Shown here: piece by piece, positions 6,792 to 14,677 of the stretch
How the letters are laid out: each line of letters starts with the position of its first letter
Position numbering within the stretch: the first letter of the stretch is position 1
From: Clostridia bacterium
Lineage (GTDB): Bacteria > UBA6262 > WVXT01 > JAUXBS01
Reading direction: 5' to 3'
NCBI GenBank assembly: GCA_030618495.1
Contig: JAUXDE010000004.1
Span: forward strand, 1 to 32,259
DNA length: 32,259 bases
The notes under the pieces: model-generated
Databases searched by the model: none
Told to the model about the DNA's origin: nothing
The model's input: the letters and a program-made list of their open reading frames with translations, nothing else
Made by a program: the position numbers and the translations under genes

Positions 6792-8204
6792 CTATTTCGG
6801 CAGGGTAACTATAAACGTGGAGCCCTTATCGAGTTCGCTTTCAACCCGGACTTTTCCCCTGTGGGCTTCAACTATGGATTTTACTATTGGCAGACCCAGG
6901 CCGGTCCCCTTCTGGCCCGGGATGGTATCCCTGATACTTCTAACCTGTTCAAACTTTTCAAAGATTTTACCGATACTTTCTTTCGGAATCCCCGCCCCGT
7001 TATCTATCACGCTTATCCTGAGGTTTTCAGCGCTATCGGCTACATCAACCTTTATCTTCCCGTTCTTTTGAGTGAACTTTATGGCATTACTCAAGAGATT
7101 CGTAATAATCTGGCCGATCCTTTCCGGGTCGGCATTTATCTTGGGCAAATTATCCGGAGCATTCACGCTTAATTCTATCTCCTTTGAATCAGCCTGGGGT
7201 TGCATGAGCTTGATTATTTCCTGCACAGAATCAAGTATATTGAAAGATTCTTTTCTTATCGTCATCTTACCACTTTCTATCTTCGATATGTCCAGAAGGT
7301 CATCAATGAAACGGGCAAGCCTGTTCGTGCTCTTCTTGATAACATTAAGGCATTCCGCCTGTTTTTCAGAGAGTTTGCCCCCTGCGCCCCTGAACAGAAG
7401 GCCTATGTACATCCTTATGGAAGTCATGGGGGACCTTAACTCGTGTGTAACGGAAGAAACAAAATCCTTTTTCATATCATCAAGTTCCTTCAACCTCCGG
7501 GCCATCCTGTTGAACTCCCTTCCTAACATGCCCAGTTCGTCTGTCTGCTTCACCTTGATTTGATAATCAAGCTCACCCTTGCCGATATGTTCTACCGCGC
7601 GGGACAGGCGGTTAATGGGCCTTATCATCATCCCCGCCATAATAAGCGAACCGATAAAACCAATGACCAGGGATATCACCGCAATGATTAATATTCTGTT
7701 GCGCGTCTTATTCAGGTTTCTCTCGATTTTTCCATCAAGGACAGCGCAGGAAAACCCGATTCTTACCACGGCCTCTTTTTTCCCGCTAATAAAAACCGGC
7801 ATGCTCACTTCATAGACATCATTACCCTTCCCGTCCGAATGGCGCTGTACCAGTAACCCTTCAGCATCCTTCACCCTTTCCCCCACCTCATCCCTGTATA
7901 TGTTACCCAGGAGACTTAAATCAGTATGCCCGAGTATCCTGTCATTCATGTCAATCAGCATCGCGTACATGACGCCTTCTGTTTTCCCGATGAGTTTCAG
8001 GTAATTCACAAGCGCTATTTCATTTCTTGCTATAAGAGATTCCTCGCCCATTCTGACAAAACCCTTTACAATATTCTCCTGGTTTGCCCTCATCTCGTCA
8101 AGCAGCATTTGCCTCTGTGAAAAGAAAAGCATGACGCTAACGCCTGTTATTACAATAATAACCAGCAGGCTTGCCATTAAACTGAATTCTGTTCTTAATT
8201 TCAT
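6792..8204 (-). CDS. Membrane sensor histidine kinase (HAMP-HisKA-HATPase)
   Basis: N-terminal TM and extracytoplasmic sensor, second TM, HAMP, H-box SSVTHELRSPMTSI, N-box NLLSNAIKFT, G boxes DNGAGIP and GTGLGLPIVKSIVEAH. Confidence 0.93.
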   Translation of the reverse strand: MKLRTEFSLMASLLVIIVITGVSVMLFFSQRQMLLDEMRANQENIVKGFVRMGEESLIARNEIALVNYLKLIGKTEGVMYAMLIDMNDRILGHTDLSLLGNIYRDEVGERVKDAEGLLVQRHSDGKGNDVYEVSMPVFISGKKEAVVRIGFSCAVLDGKIERNLNKTRNRILIIAVISLVIGFIGSLIMAGMMIRPINRLSRAVEHIGKGELDYQIKVKQTDELGMLGREFNRMARRLKELDDMKKDFVSSVTHELRSPMTSIRMYIGLLFRGAGGKLSEKQAECLNVIKKSTNRLARFIDDLLDISKIESGKMTIRKESFNILDSVQEIIKLMQPQADSKEIELSVNAPDNLPKINADPERIGQIITNLLSNAIKFTQKNGKIKVDVADSAENLRISVIDNGAGIPKESIGKIFEKFEQVRSIRDTIPGQKGTGLGLPIVKSIVEAHRGKVRVESELDKGSTFIVTLPK

Positions 8205-10132
8205 TTCTTATCGCGTTCCTCTTTTGCCCTTATTAAATTCTTCCTGGAGCTGACATGGTCCGGGAATAACCTTAAAACCTCTTCCCACAACTCTATTGCC
8301 TCGTCTATCTTGCCGTCGCTGTACTTGAGAAGCGCCTCCTTGTTGATTTCGTCCGCCCTGCTCCCGCATATTTGCTTCAGGGACTCCGCCGCCCGGCTGT
8401 TACCGGGGTTCAGTTTGACGGCATGTTTTAACTTTTCTATGGATTCATCAAAGTTGCCCACATCAAACAGTTCTTTTCCCTTGGAAAAATATTCATCTGA
8501 CAGTTCTTTTTTTGCCTTCTTTAAGAGCCCCACGGCGCTTTCATGCTTCGGGTTGAGCTTAACGGTTGACTCAAGAGTTTTCACTGCCTTATCATAATCC
8601 TGTTTCTCATATTGTTTCAGCCCTTTTTTATAAAGGACATCGGCCTGGCTGTACTCCCGGGCAAGTATTTCAATTTCTTCTGCCTTTCTTGTCTCCTCCT
8701 GTTTTGCCTCCGCCGCCACAATAAAATCCCTGCTTTCCTTGTGTCCCGGTTTTATTAAAAGAACCTTCTTCCACAGTTCAATAGCATCCTTGTACTGTTT
8801 CTTCCTGTAATACTCAAGTCCGTCGTCAAACATGATATCAGCCATTTTTTGTTTTTCGGTAACAATCCTATCCTTGAGCTTTTCGATATAATCCTCTGCC
8901 TGGGGGTGACCCGGGAAAAGGGAAAGTATGTTCTCAAACTCCTCCTTTGACTCCAGGAGTTTGTTCTCCTCAAGGTATCTTCGCCCCTTTTCAAGGTACA
9001 ATTCAACCTTTATATCCTTCACCGTTGAAGCAATCATCCCCAGGTATTTCTTCGCATCCTCATGGTTCGGGTCAAGCACCAGCACATTGTTAAACAACTT
9101 GTTCGCTCTTACGTAATCTTTTCTCCCGTAATACTTCTTTCCCCTGAGGAAATACTTATCTATCTTTTCAAAAATCAATCCTCTTTCAAACCGGTTTCCA
9201 AAACGGTAACTCAGGCTGAACCTGTGGGCCTCCCCGAGAAAACCGTAAGGCGTATAGGCATAGTCAACATCGACAATATCGCTTATAAATCCCATGCCGC
9301 ACCTCAGCCCCTCGTCAAGGTCATACTGGGCAGGTTTTATTTTGTAACCCGCCCTGAGGGCAAACAGATTGCTAATCCTGTATTCACAGCCCACGTTCAT
9401 GCTGATTCTATTATCGTTCGGCAGGTTGAAATCAAGAGCCACCAGGAGATCATCGCCTAATAACCTTGAGGAAAAACCCAGCCTGTAATTCAAGGGCAGA
9501 GGATAGCCGGCAGACGAATGGTTCAACTCAGTTCCCAGGTTCTGCATACTGAACCCGATATTGAACTTTTCCCCGCTTAATTTATAAAGAACGCCCGCAT
9601 CAAGAGCAAACACAACGGCCTGACTCTCATGAAGTGTTTCCCCTATGTACTTTACATTGACCCCCAGGTGGAATGTCCTCCCCTTTTCCCTGTCCAAAGT
9701 TACCTTGTGCGCGTATGTAAGAGCAATTGCCGTATCAGACACGCCTATATTTCCAATGGAAGCTCCATCGTTTCCATATCCCGCAATATCGTTTTTTGAA
9801 AGGCTTGTAATACTGAGCCCGAACGCCCCCGATTTCTTAACAGGCATCACTCCCGAAAGGAAACCGAAACTCATACCACCGAGCCACTGAACGAGCATCC
9901 CCGATACCTCCCACCGGTTTAACTGAGACAACCCCGAAGGATTCCAGTAAAAAGCGCTGGCGTCATCGCTCACGGCGACAAAAGCCTCCCCCATACCTAT
10001 CGCCCTGGGACCCACCCCTAACTTAAGGAAGTTCAGGCCCGTACCGCCCGTTTCCACCGAATAAGCGGTTCCATATATAAAAGGAAACAACAGACAAACT
10101 ATAATAATAAATTTCTTCATTGACATAATCAT
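8201..10132 (-). CDS. PorV/PorQ-like outer-membrane protein with C-terminal TPR array
   Basis: N-term GTGLNFLKLGVGPRAIGMGEAFVAVSDDASAFYWNPSGLSQL is PorV/PorQ-like, followed by beta-barrel-like sequence to about residue 315; then repeated 'YxKAxxLxxxxLxLxPxHxxA' TPR units. 4-nt overlaps with both neighbours. Confidence 0.85.
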   Translation of the reverse strand: MIMSMKKFIIIVCLLFPFIYGTAYSVETGGTGLNFLKLGVGPRAIGMGEAFVAVSDDASAFYWNPSGLSQLNRWEVSGMLVQWLGGMSFGFLSGVMPVKKSGAFGLSITSLSKNDIAGYGNDGASIGNIGVSDTAIALTYAHKVTLDREKGRTFHLGVNVKYIGETLHESQAVVFALDAGVLYKLSGEKFNIGFSMQNLGTELNHSSAGYPLPLNYRLGFSSRLLGDDLLVALDFNLPNDNRISMNVGCEYRISNLFALRAGYKIKPAQYDLDEGLRCGMGFISDIVDVDYAYTPYGFLGEAHRFSLSYRFGNRFERGLIFEKIDKYFLRGKKYYGRKDYVRANKLFNNVLVLDPNHEDAKKYLGMIASTVKDIKVELYLEKGRRYLEENKLLESKEEFENILSLFPGHPQAEDYIEKLKDRIVTEKQKMADIMFDDGLEYYRKKQYKDAIELWKKVLLIKPGHKESRDFIVAAEAKQEETRKAEEIEILAREYSQADVLYKKGLKQYEKQDYDKAVKTLESTVKLNPKHESAVGLLKKAKKELSDEYFSKGKELFDVGNFDESIEKLKHAVKLNPGNSRAAESLKQICGSRADEINKEALLKYSDGKIDEAIELWEEVLRLFPDHVSSRKNLIRAKEERDKK

Positions 10133-11484
10133 TTAATTATAACCAGCTGACCGGACTTGCTCTTCTCGGCATTAAATATGTAGTACAGGTACACCCCGCT
10201 TGAAAACTTATCCACGTCAAGCGTATCATTAGAACCGTCCCCGTCAACTTCTTCTATGGTCTGGACAAGTTCCCCCGATAAGGTGTATACCTTAATCGTT
10301 GCCTGTGACGATAAACCTGTAAATTTAATCTCCGTATGATTTTCCGGGCTATTTGCTATAAAAGGAACGGGATACGCGTAAGCGCCTGATAAATTGGTCT
10401 CATTAACGCCCATGAGCGTATATATAGAAAAATGATTGACCTTTGCGGTGACTGTATTTGCCGATGTATCGACCACGGAACCCGGTATTTTTACCCATAT
10501 ACTGTCATCCTCGTTTAGCCAGTATATTGCCAGGGTTTCCTCCCTCACGGGAGGCGATGTTCCTTTTACATAATTGCCATCCATCTTATACGGAATTGTT
10601 AACTCAACATCAGAAGAAAAATCATCGTGGGAAAGCGCCAGCGGATTGCCTTTATAAACCTTGATGTCCCTCAGGGTGCTGTCAACAGGCATAAAAAACC
10701 TGTCATCACTGTTATCAGCCTTGATATTAGCGGCAATTATCTGTGAAGTAAAAGCAGGATTCGTATCAATAACAATATAATAACTATTATTACCGAACGG
10801 AAACGGAGGTAATTTTATTTTTGTTTTACCGTCATTGGCGGTAATCGTATGACTACTAGTATTCATTATGGTTAAAAACTCATATGCCCTATAATACCCA
10901 TTGAAATCCCCTCCCGCTCCTATCTCATCCCAGTCATATCCCTGTTCATCGCTAAGTGATACTGTTGCCGTGGGAACACCCACATCCAACCACCACCCGT
11001 ATCCGTCCGTTTGACTTGTATTGGTACTTTCCACACATATCCAGTATGTTGCTCCACTGATTAATTTTGGAGGATTATCCAGGAAAAATTCATGCCAGTG
11101 ATATGTTGTTGTACTGACATTTGCAGTAATTGAATAAAGTGCCGGGGTGGGTTTTGAATCAGGTCTCAAAAAACCATTATCGTTTCTGATTTCCACCGTA
11201 ATATAATCAGTTGTTGATTCAACATTTCTTATCCGTAACTCAACCTTTCCTAAATAGAAATCCTTGGGAGCAACAAAATTCTGGGCAACCCAGCCATAAG
11301 TAGTATTTGCAACTCCATACCAAATAGATATTCCTCCGCTGCTTGTACCAACATGATATTGATGAGAAGATATGGGTGTGGTATATGCTTGCCCGCCGTG
11401 GTCAACCGCAAGAACATTAGAAGTGAACAATAGACATGATAATGAAAGAAATAATATTATTTTAATATAATTTAACCTTAACAT
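10129..11484 (-). CDS. Secreted protein with T9SS-like C-terminal sorting/FlgD-like domain
   Basis: ORF track starts at 11616, but the signal peptide MLRLNYIKIILFLSLSCLLFTSNVLA starts at 11484. C-term AYAYPVPFIANSPENHTEIKFTG...GVYLYYIFNAEKSKSGQLVIIK. Confidence 0.78.
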   Translation of the reverse strand: MLRLNYIKIILFLSLSCLLFTSNVLAVDHGGQAYTTPISSHQYHVGTSSGGISIWYGVANTTYGWVAQNFVAPKDFYLGKVELRIRNVESTTDYITVEIRNDNGFLRPDSKPTPALYSITANVSTTTYHWHEFFLDNPPKLISGATYWICVESTNTSQTDGYGWWLDVGVPTATVSLSDEQGYDWDEIGAGGDFNGYYRAYEFLTIMNTSSHTITANDGKTKIKLPPFPFGNNSYYIVIDTNPAFTSQIIAANIKADNSDDRFFMPVDSTLRDIKVYKGNPLALSHDDFSSDVELTIPYKMDGNYVKGTSPPVREETLAIYWLNEDDSIWVKIPGSVVDTSANTVTAKVNHFSIYTLMGVNETNLSGAYAYPVPFIANSPENHTEIKFTGLSSQATIKVYTLSGELVQTIEEVDGDGSNDTLDVDKFSSGVYLYYIFNAEKSKSGQLVIIK

Positions 11485-11754
11485 TTTAAACCCTGGAGAA
11501 TTATACAACAGTTTTAACCAGGTAGCAAGGATTTTTTTTAAAACCTTTCCCCGCACTGCCGGAAAGCCAGAAAAAATGTGAGGGTTCTTATTTTTATATG
11601 AACCTTCCAGAAACATATAATACCAAGAATATCAGTGTTTTTCAGGTTTTTCATGAAACATTTAAAACAACAGATTTTGTCACTAATGTTACAAAATTAT
11701 TACTGAATATGAACTATATAGCGACGATAAACGAAATATTTACGAAAATAATAC

Positions 11755-11783
11755 TTGACAAACCAAAATACCTGTGATATAAT
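11755..11783 (+). promoter_or_regulatory. Consensus extended -10 sigma70-type promoter for the riboswitch transcript
   Basis: TTGACA (11755-11760), 17 bp spacer, TATAAT (11778-11783), preceded by TGA (extended -10). Confidence 0.88.
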
Positions 11784-11831
11784 TTACATTGAAAGGACAA
11801 AGTAGAAAGGACAATTTAATATTTAACAGGT

Positions 11832-11930
11832 TTATCCGATAATAGCAAACCATTCCGAAAGGGTGGGACGCAAAGCCACGGAACTAAATCCCGGGAAACC
11901 GGGACAAGCAAGCCGGGTTACCGAAGATAA
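11832..11930 (+). ncRNA. GEMM-I (cyclic dinucleotide) riboswitch aptamer
   Basis: GCAAACCATTCCGAAAGGGTGGGACGCAAAGCCACGG...TCCCGGGAAACCGGGA...GCCGGGTTACCGAAG. P1 TTATC-CG / CG-AA-GATAA, GAAA tetraloop on P2, GGGACGCAAAGCC core. Confidence 0.95.
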
Positions 11931-11970
11931 GATTATTGTTAATTCTTATTTGTGGTAACCCGGTTTTTTT
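11913..11970 (+). terminator. Riboswitch expression-platform intrinsic terminator
   Basis: 10 bp perfect stem CCGGGTTACC (11913-11922) / GGTAACCCGG (11954-11963), then T7 (11964-11970). The 5' arm is part of the aptamer. Confidence 0.92.
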
Positions 11971-11981
11971 GGAGGCTTGAA

Positions 11982-13709
11982 ATGAAAATTAAAAGAATAT
12001 TAATACTTAGTTTATTCTTCATGATTTCAGGTCTACTTATATACCCGCTTAATGCTGAATTCGTTGTTGTCGTGGAACCCGAAGATGAAGTCACCGTGGT
12101 TTTTGACAACGATATTCCTGCTCCCCCCCCTGTCGAAGAACCTCCCGCTGAAGAACCCACCGTTGAAGAGCCTGCAGAAGTCCCCGGAACTGATACCGTG
12201 GATTTGACTGTAGATGACACTAATTCAAACATTGTATACAAGAAGCTGGTTTTTAACCTCAGTGATTACATTTCCGAGAACACAACGATTATAGAAGGCA
12301 GGATCTGGTTCAGCCGCAGTAAGAACGACACCGACAAATACTACGAACAGGCAAGATTATGGATCAAGCAGCTGCCCAAGAAGAATAAAGAATCAATGAA
12401 AGTTTCTTTAAAGAAGAAATGGAGCAAACCATACACGTCTAACTGCAAGAAGGGCGGATACGAATGGAATGTTACGGATGAACTAATAGGCCTAATAACT
12501 GACGGCAATGATAGTTTTGAAATTAACGTTAAATACTATAACAAGGAATCATTAAGTAAATCATTCTTATTGATTACTTATGAAAACGAAGAATCCAGTG
12601 AAACCGGCGCCCTGATTAGCGCATCCGTTGATGTTTATCCAAAAACCATTAACCTCAAGAGCAGGCGTTCATGGATCAAAGCCCATATAGAACTTCCTGA
12701 AGAATACGATGCGAACGAAATAGACATTTCAAGTGTAAAGATCACAGAAATCGACGGTTCACAGATAGAGGCAATATCCATCGCTAACGGATATAAAAAG
12801 GCCTCAGGTTTAATGGTCCGGTTCCCCAGAGAAGAGCTAAAGAAAGTCCTTTCACCGGCAGTAAATGTATCCATAACCGTTGCCGGCAGTCTTGCCAGTG
12901 GAGAAAAATTCGTTGGCAAAACGCTGGTAAATGTTATAGAGCCGGGAATAAATAAGCTGATATCGGTAAGCGGCGGCGGAGTCGGTAATCTCAAGAATGC
13001 GAATATTAACATCCCGCTGGGAGCCCTTGACGAAGCAACGGAAATCACCATAGCTACAGATGAAGAAACTGAGGAAGAGGATTCCGATGAAGATCAGGAT
13101 TCAGACAATGCCTTGGATGAACAGGAACTTGAAGGAATTGGTAAGGGCTGTCACTTCGGCCCCGAAGGAACACAGTTTAATAAGCCGGTTCTTATAACTC
13201 TTTATTATGACGATATAGAAGGGAATGATTCCCGGAATTTGAATATTTACTATTGGAACACAGCGCTTAGGTTATGGGAAGTTCTCGCTAATTCTGAAGT
13301 TGATACCGCGAACAATTCAGTAAGCGCCGAAGTGAAACATTTTTCACTGTACCGGGTACTTTCAACCAAAGCGGCCGAATCCAACGAAGACTATCTTGGT
13401 TCATCCTTTAGGCTGGGCGAGGTATACTGCTATCCCAGCCCGGCAAGAGAAGGAATAGACCCCACGTTTCATGTTGAAGCCGACAACGCAAATGAAATTC
13501 AAATAAGGATCTTTAATGTTGCCGGAAATGAAGTTAATGCAATCCTTCTCGATGGTTCCAATATTGTCTACAAGAATTCAATACCGGCATATGAGTATGT
13601 CTGGAACACAGCAGGTGTTGCCTCGGGTGTTTATGTATACTCCGTTACGGCAGTAAAAGAAGGCCATCAGTCTCTGCGGGTAATCAAGAAAATGGGGATT
13701 GTAAAATGA
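11982..13709 (+). CDS. Riboswitch-controlled secreted protein (Pro/Glu-rich segment, ZU5-like segment, acidic stretch, T9SS-like C-terminus)
   Basis: ATG 11982 after GGAGG (11971-11975); the listed GTG start at 11952 lies in the terminator. Signal peptide MKIKRILILSLFFMISGLLIYPLNA. C-term YCYPSPAREG...GVYVYSVTAVKEGHQSLRVIKKMGIVK. Confidence 0.8.
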   Translation: MKIKRILILSLFFMISGLLIYPLNAEFVVVVEPEDEVTVVFDNDIPAPPPVEEPPAEEPTVEEPAEVPGTDTVDLTVDDTNSNIVYKKLVFNLSDYISENTTIIEGRIWFSRSKNDTDKYYEQARLWIKQLPKKNKESMKVSLKKKWSKPYTSNCKKGGYEWNVTDELIGLITDGNDSFEINVKYYNKESLSKSFLLITYENEESSETGALISASVDVYPKTINLKSRRSWIKAHIELPEEYDANEIDISSVKITEIDGSQIEAISIANGYKKASGLMVRFPREELKKVLSPAVNVSITVAGSLASGEKFVGKTLVNVIEPGINKLISVSGGGVGNLKNANINIPLGALDEATEITIATDEETEEEDSDEDQDSDNALDEQELEGIGKGCHFGPEGTQFNKPVLITLYYDDIEGNDSRNLNIYYWNTALRLWEVLANSEVDTANNSVSAEVKHFSLYRVLSTKAAESNEDYLGSSFRLGEVYCYPSPAREGIDPTFHVEADNANEIQIRIFNVAGNEVNAILLDGSNIVYKNSIPAYEYVWNTAGVASGVYVYSVTAVKEGHQSLRVIKKMGIVK

Positions 13710-14677
13710 AGAGAATAATCATTACCGTCTTTTTGCTCCTGGGCCTGGTATCCGGCAGTCATTCTCTTGCCGGGACCGCAGCAACAGGCGCGTCCTTCCT
13801 CAATATAGGCACGGATGCAAGGGCAATGAGCATGGGAAATGCATTTACAGGCATGGCCAGCGGTATAAGCGCGATTCACTATAACCCTTCCGGGATTGCC
13901 GGTCTTCAGGAAAAGGAATTTCAGGCCAGCCATTCCGAATGGATGTCCGGCATGCATTACGAGTGCATGGGATTTGCATCGCCGGTGGAAATAAGCATCG
14001 GTGACGCCTTTGAAACAAAAGGCGCCGCGGGAATCAGTTTGATATATTTCTCAACAGGCGAAATAGAAAGAAGAAGCCTGTCAGGAGAAAAACTTGAAGG
14101 GAATTACAGCGCTTCTGATATGGCTCTCGCATTCTCTTACGGCCAAAAACTTAACAATAGAACGGCCCTTGGAATGAATTTCAAAATAATCAGCCAGACA
14201 ATTGACACTGAGAATGCCGGGGGATTTGCAGTTGACCTGGGGAGCACTCACAAAACATCTGTTCCGGGCCTTTCTCTCGGAATAGCCATGAGGAACCTGG
14301 GGCCGCAAATGAGATTCATTCAGGCGGACTACCGGCTCCCATTGGAACTCTCCATCGGCGGAACCTTCATGTCCCGGGACATTAACGGTTATACAATCGG
14401 AATGGATATCAGTTACCAACCGTTTGAAGAAAGAACAAACATATCTTTTGGCGGCGAATACAACTTCAACAGCATATTCAGTTTCAGGACAGGCTATTCG
14501 CTGGATGCCTTTAAATCAGGCCTCGCTTCTGGGAATATCGGCGGGCTGCTGTCTTCCGCCGGCGGGCTGTCGGGAGGAATAGGGTTAAACTTCCCAAAAT
14601 ACAGTATTGATTATGCCTTCCTGCCGATAGGAGAACTCGGCATAACACATCGCATAACCTTCTCAACCAGATTTTAG
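13706..14677 (+). CDS. PorV/PorQ-family outer-membrane protein
   Basis: GTAATGASFLNIGTDARAMSMGNAFTGMASGISAIHYNPSGIAGL; barrel-like C-terminus ending ITFSTRF. ATGA overlap with the upstream gene. Confidence 0.85.
   Translation: MKRIIITVFLLLGLVSGSHSLAGTAATGASFLNIGTDARAMSMGNAFTGMASGISAIHYNPSGIAGLQEKEFQASHSEWMSGMHYECMGFASPVEISIGDAFETKGAAGISLIYFSTGEIERRSLSGEKLEGNYSASDMALAFSYGQKLNNRTALGMNFKIISQTIDTENAGGFAVDLGSTHKTSVPGLSLGIAMRNLGPQMRFIQADYRLPLELSIGGTFMSRDINGYTIGMDISYQPFEERTNISFGGEYNFNSIFSFRTGYSLDAFKSGLASGNIGGLLSSAGGLSGGIGLNFPKYSIDYAFLPIGELGITHRITFSTRF

Follow-up and report, generated by a model that had tools for sequence, protein, structure and literature searches.

Which cyclic dinucleotide is read by a GEMM-I riboswitch that carries adenine at the position where c-di-GMP-I aptamers have guanine? 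This question is raised by a leader in the window, i.e. the whole stretch of 32,259 nucleotides from a Clostridia bacterium analysed here, for which the initial annotation had proposed a GEMM-I riboswitch at 11832-11970, a span that proved to comprise the aptamer plus a terminator. In a covariance search, RF01051 (c-di-GMP-I, GEMM-I family) matched positions 11834-11925 of the forward strand with 70.4 bits (E 4.6e-12) over model positions 1-87 of 87, and our own model R1 gave the GEMM-I aptamer 78.5 bits. The full-model score, which exceeds the gathering score of 35, and its position in a 5' leader that also holds an expression platform place the element in the c-di-GMP-I/GEMM-I family, as had been annotated. 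The match is the only one in the window and the only one in the whole 1.69 Mb genome (98% complete).

The covariance alignment indeed places A, and not the G of the family consensus, at model position 11 (11844), with a high posterior probability. In the Vc2 numbering, the pocket consists of G14 (11838), A18 (11842), U19 (11843), A20 (11844), G21 (11845), C46 (11871), A47 (11872), C92 (11921) and C93 (11922). The pairs G14-C93 and G21-C46 as well as the retained A18 and C92, which had been numbered by hand before, are the same in the alignment. The specificity site U19-A20-G21 spans 11843-11845 (+), and G21 pairs with C46 as in ordinary c-di-GMP-I aptamers. All contact bases besides position 20 are intact, and A20 occurs together with C92, the combination that serves as the GEMM-Ib criterion. 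Since the GATAATAGCAAACC core is also present in a genome of the same genus (G001), and an A20 aptamer with the core GAYAATAGCAAACC in four of four genomes of the sister family, A20 is not a lone sequence error. From this we conclude that the aptamer and its A20 are real.

The surrounding leader is organized as a switch. A sigma-70-like promoter with extended TG (TTGACA-17-TATAAT, 11755-11783, +) matches 12 of 12 consensus bases and its core is kept in G001; transcription would start there, about 50 nt upstream of the aptamer. Helix P1 is closed in the predicted fold of the RNA from 11820 to 11935. When the RNA is extended to 11972, the 3' strand of P1 re-pairs with GGTAACCCGG as an intrinsic terminator (11911-11969, +), which is followed by seven U, and the whole extended RNA reaches a predicted -57.7 kcal/mol (z -5.9). 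The left arm of this terminator (GCCGGGTTACC...GGTAACCCGGTTTTTTT) includes the 3' strand of P1, and predicted folds that include or omit the right arm indicate that P1 and the terminator are mutually exclusive, one strand being common to both. A GGAGG ribosome-binding site and the ATG start (11982) lie at 11971-11984 (+). Because the strong terminator draws its left arm from the 3' strand of P1, ligand binding should switch the gene on: a bound cyclic dinucleotide would close P1 (5' UUAUCCG with 3' CGAAGAUAA), the 3' strand would become unavailable to the terminator, and the polymerase would read through into the downstream genes, while in the ligand-free state the GCCGGGUUACC/GGUAACCCGG hairpin would halt it. 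Control of a surface-protein operon by a transcriptional ON switch is therefore the likely mechanism, with the ON direction suggested by the predicted folds. In G001, the aptamer, P1, the terminator arms and the ribosome-binding site are conserved, while the loops and the upstream DNA have diverged.

The product of the regulated gene (11982-13709, +) is a secreted protein of 575 aa with a signal peptide and a type IX-like C-terminal sorting domain, which matches TIGR04183 with 27.0 bits (cut-off 23); a match to Pfam PF18962 is below its cut-off. The second gene (13706-14677, +), which overlaps the first by 4 bases, encodes an outer-membrane protein of the PorV/PorQ family (NF033709, 169.8 bits, cut-off 90). 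The sorting tail and this neighbour support an envelope target, which the initial annotation had expected. In G001, the A20 aptamer precedes the same two genes, and the orthologue of the secreted protein is 52% identical. A weak match to SprA_N elsewhere in the genome hints at a possible type IX-like system. The adjoining divergent operon (8201-11616, -) encodes another protein with a type IX-type sorting tail and a PorV-family/TPR protein.

With regard to the ligand, we searched the genome for enzymes of cyclic-dinucleotide metabolism. Eight GGDEF matches were found, namely five intact Asp-type domains (three of them with the motif GGDDF instead of GGDEF), one Asp-type fragment and two without the motif, and in addition eight PilZ and three HD-GYP matches, so that, as judged from these domains, c-di-GMP signalling is present. 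The initial annotation had suggested looking for a HyPR cyclase; by a strict Ser pattern for the known Ser-type Hypr GGDEF, the genome has no match, although a gene could have been missed at 98% completeness. SMODS-type cyclases were likewise not found in it, and neither type was detected by motif searches in the draft genomes of the order, which we sampled with six genomes (that of the window, G001 and four of the sister family). The top GGDEF match of the window's genome, L031, has His in place of the cross-dimer Arg of canonical cyclases. It belongs to a group of paralogous GGDEF proteins (L031, L033, L034, L035, L100, L105 and L108), most of which are fused to a sugar-binding-protein-like domain and several of which have lost the GGDEF motif. 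A GGDEF protein with several receiver domains, in which the Hypr position is Asn (NDTRGHLxGN...RYGGDEF; L098, L099, L103 and L106), occurs in four of four sister-family genomes. We rejected this Asn-type protein as the missing cGAMP synthase for want of an association: the window's family does not have it, and DNA matches to the Asn pattern are present in Geobacter-type genomes as well.

We also scanned GTDB representatives with an A20-aptamer pattern that requires U19, and all subtype frequencies given here apply to the matches listed and are not population estimates. These matches mostly belong to Geobacter relatives, but also to Firmicutes, Omnitrophica, Elusimicrobia and Planctomycetota. 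Covariance-model alignment separated two forms among them: the Geobacter group has U19-A20-C21-U22 (90 aptamers), whereas the window, the other phyla and one Desulfuromonadales genome (L166) have U19-A20-G21-C22. The window aptamer, with C46 opposite G21, accordingly does not have the Geobacter-type UACU core with its swapped lower P2 pair, a core which, taken as a criterion for GEMM-Ib, characterizes the validated lineage in our comparison and is not a published definition. The strict DNA pattern for Ser-type GGDEF was found in 18 of 18 Geobacter-type genomes tested (the GGDEF protein was confirmed by translation in 16, with a DNA match alone in two), compared to one of 24 genomes of the G21-C22 form, namely that of L166 (protein confirmed), again among the matches listed; six of the 24 belong to the window's order, and lineage is confounded with A20 form in this comparison. 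A Paenibacillus match to the Ser pattern (L230) was discarded, as its 71-aa frame does not encode a GGDEF protein. A tandem GEMM-I element is also present in a Firmicutes MAG (L139:636-863, -), where the aptamer downstream of an A20 aptamer differs at positions 19-20 by a CC variation and the loss of one base.

Within the order, the sister-family genomes harbor 9-16 GEMM-I elements each, mostly with G20. One per genome is the A20 aptamer, which in four of four genomes is followed in tandem, about 240 nt downstream, by a near-identical G20 aptamer; this arrangement would be a two-input gate if the two ligands are different. A terminator-like hairpin follows each aptamer of these tandems (L048, L050, L051 and L066) where the contig allows. 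In four sister-family genomes, homologues of the window's secreted protein are preceded by G20 aptamers. A degenerate aptamer (core GCAAC instead of GCAAAC) alternates between A20 and G20 at an orthologous locus of sister species. Another apparent A20 aptamer (L075 in G004) was rejected because its 5' part is damaged by Ns. In the leaders L041, L042, L045 and L046 (aptamer core at 305 to ATG near 469), the aptamer 3' end is duplicated (GAGCCGGGTTGCCGAA); the duplicate is the left arm of a terminator, and the two copies are possibly alternative 3' halves. The order thereby offers a clean test of position 20: four of its genomes carry near-identical A20/G20 tandems, and the homologous surface-protein genes follow A20 in one family and G20 in the other.

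From these results, we slightly favor the joint reading of a working ON riboswitch whose A20 relaxes specificity and whose ligand in the cell is c-di-GMP. Most likely, the aptamer binds both c-di-GMP and 3',3'-cGAMP, and its signal is probably c-di-GMP or either of the two; c-di-GMP is the most likely ligand in the cell because it is the sole dinucleotide with a visible synthase. The G21-C46 scaffold that sets the aptamer apart from those of Geobacter, the homologues of the same protein behind G20 and, by analogy, an A20 aptamer of Desulfobacca that still binds c-di-GMP speak for this relaxed-specificity reading. Against it, both families of the order have retained U19-A20 though the remaining leader diverged, the A20/G20 tandem is puzzling if both aptamers read one ligand equally well, and the apparent lack of a cGAMP cyclase derives from motif searches of draft genomes. 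A narrower version of the same reading, a real possibility if below even, is a switch tuned in affinity that does not respond to cGAMP, in which A20 weakens binding and the gene is on at high c-di-GMP only. This would fit a genome in which c-di-GMP machinery alone is visible, the control of the same protein family by G20 aptamers and the alternation of A20 and G20 at the degenerate locus; however, an aptamer without the canonical GCAAACC core is a poor guide, and tuning of affinity does not need the joint retention of U19-A20.

That the aptamer is instead selective for cGAMP, as a GEMM-Ib-type ON switch fed by a cyclase without the known Ser signature, e.g. a promiscuous GGDEF, appears less likely than not to us. 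A20 is the published marker for cGAMP (PMC6456294; PMC9481103), U19-A20 is common to the window and the Geobacter aptamers, and the tandems, the Asn-type GGDEF of the sister family and the His of L031 would also be consistent with such a signal. On the other hand, the six genomes of the order yielded neither known cyclase type, the Ser-type enzyme is missing by motif in 23 of 24 genomes with the window's A20 form but in none of the 18 Geobacter-type genomes among the matches listed, and the distribution of the Asn variant does not follow the aptamer. The initial annotation, which took A20 as a sign that this chromosome uses cGAMP, or both dinucleotides, is thus partly supported: the base is there, but in a G21-C46 scaffold and without a detected Ser-type enzyme. 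We regard it as unlikely that the U19-A20-G21-C22 form of several phyla and the window's order senses cGAMP from a synthase other than Ser-type Hypr GGDEF. If true, cGAMP signalling would extend well beyond Geobacter and its relatives, and a novel class of cGAMP synthase would exist in several phyla; if the non-Geobacter A20 aptamers read c-di-GMP, A20 alone would be unfit for annotating cGAMP riboswitches. Very improbable, finally, is a decayed element in which A20 is due to neutral drift and the gene is in practice either constitutive or off. It would agree with the single GEMM-I element of this genome as against the many of each sister-family genome, but not with the elements kept in G001 despite the divergence around them, nor with an otherwise intact pocket.

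Compared to known systems, position 20 is regarded as a selectivity factor and not as a hard filter (PMC9262584). The cGAMP selectivity of Geobacter GEMM-Ib aptamers is strong and reaches about 1200-fold in the pgcA riboswitch, while Gmet_0970 is converted to c-di-GMP by A20G (PMC6456294). The window aptamer shares U19-A20 with Gs1761, Gmet_0970 and pilM, and an ON architecture with terminator overlap with pilM; it differs in having G21-C22 where the Geobacter aptamers have C21-U22 with the swapped lower P2 pair, and in a genome without a detected Ser-type GGDEF. The cluster-3 aptamer of Desulfobacca acetoxidans has A at the specificity position in an otherwise c-di-GMP-I-like aptamer, as in the window, and there c-AMP-GMP affinity was increased and c-di-GMP affinity perhaps slightly decreased (PMC9481103), from which it follows that selectivity for cGAMP is not established by A20 where the P2 change of Geobacter is lacking. 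It is, however, paired with an AdoCbl riboswitch and its ligand data come from in-line probing, while the window aptamer is known from its sequence. The Rfam variants c-di-GMP-I-GGC (RF03167) and c-di-GMP-I-UAU (RF03168) have clan and fold in common with the window aptamer, which nevertheless scores best with RF01051. With members of that family such as Vc2, it shares P2 with a GAAA loop, G21-C46, A47, C92 and the closing pair of P1, and it differs from them by A instead of G at position 20 and by U at position 19.
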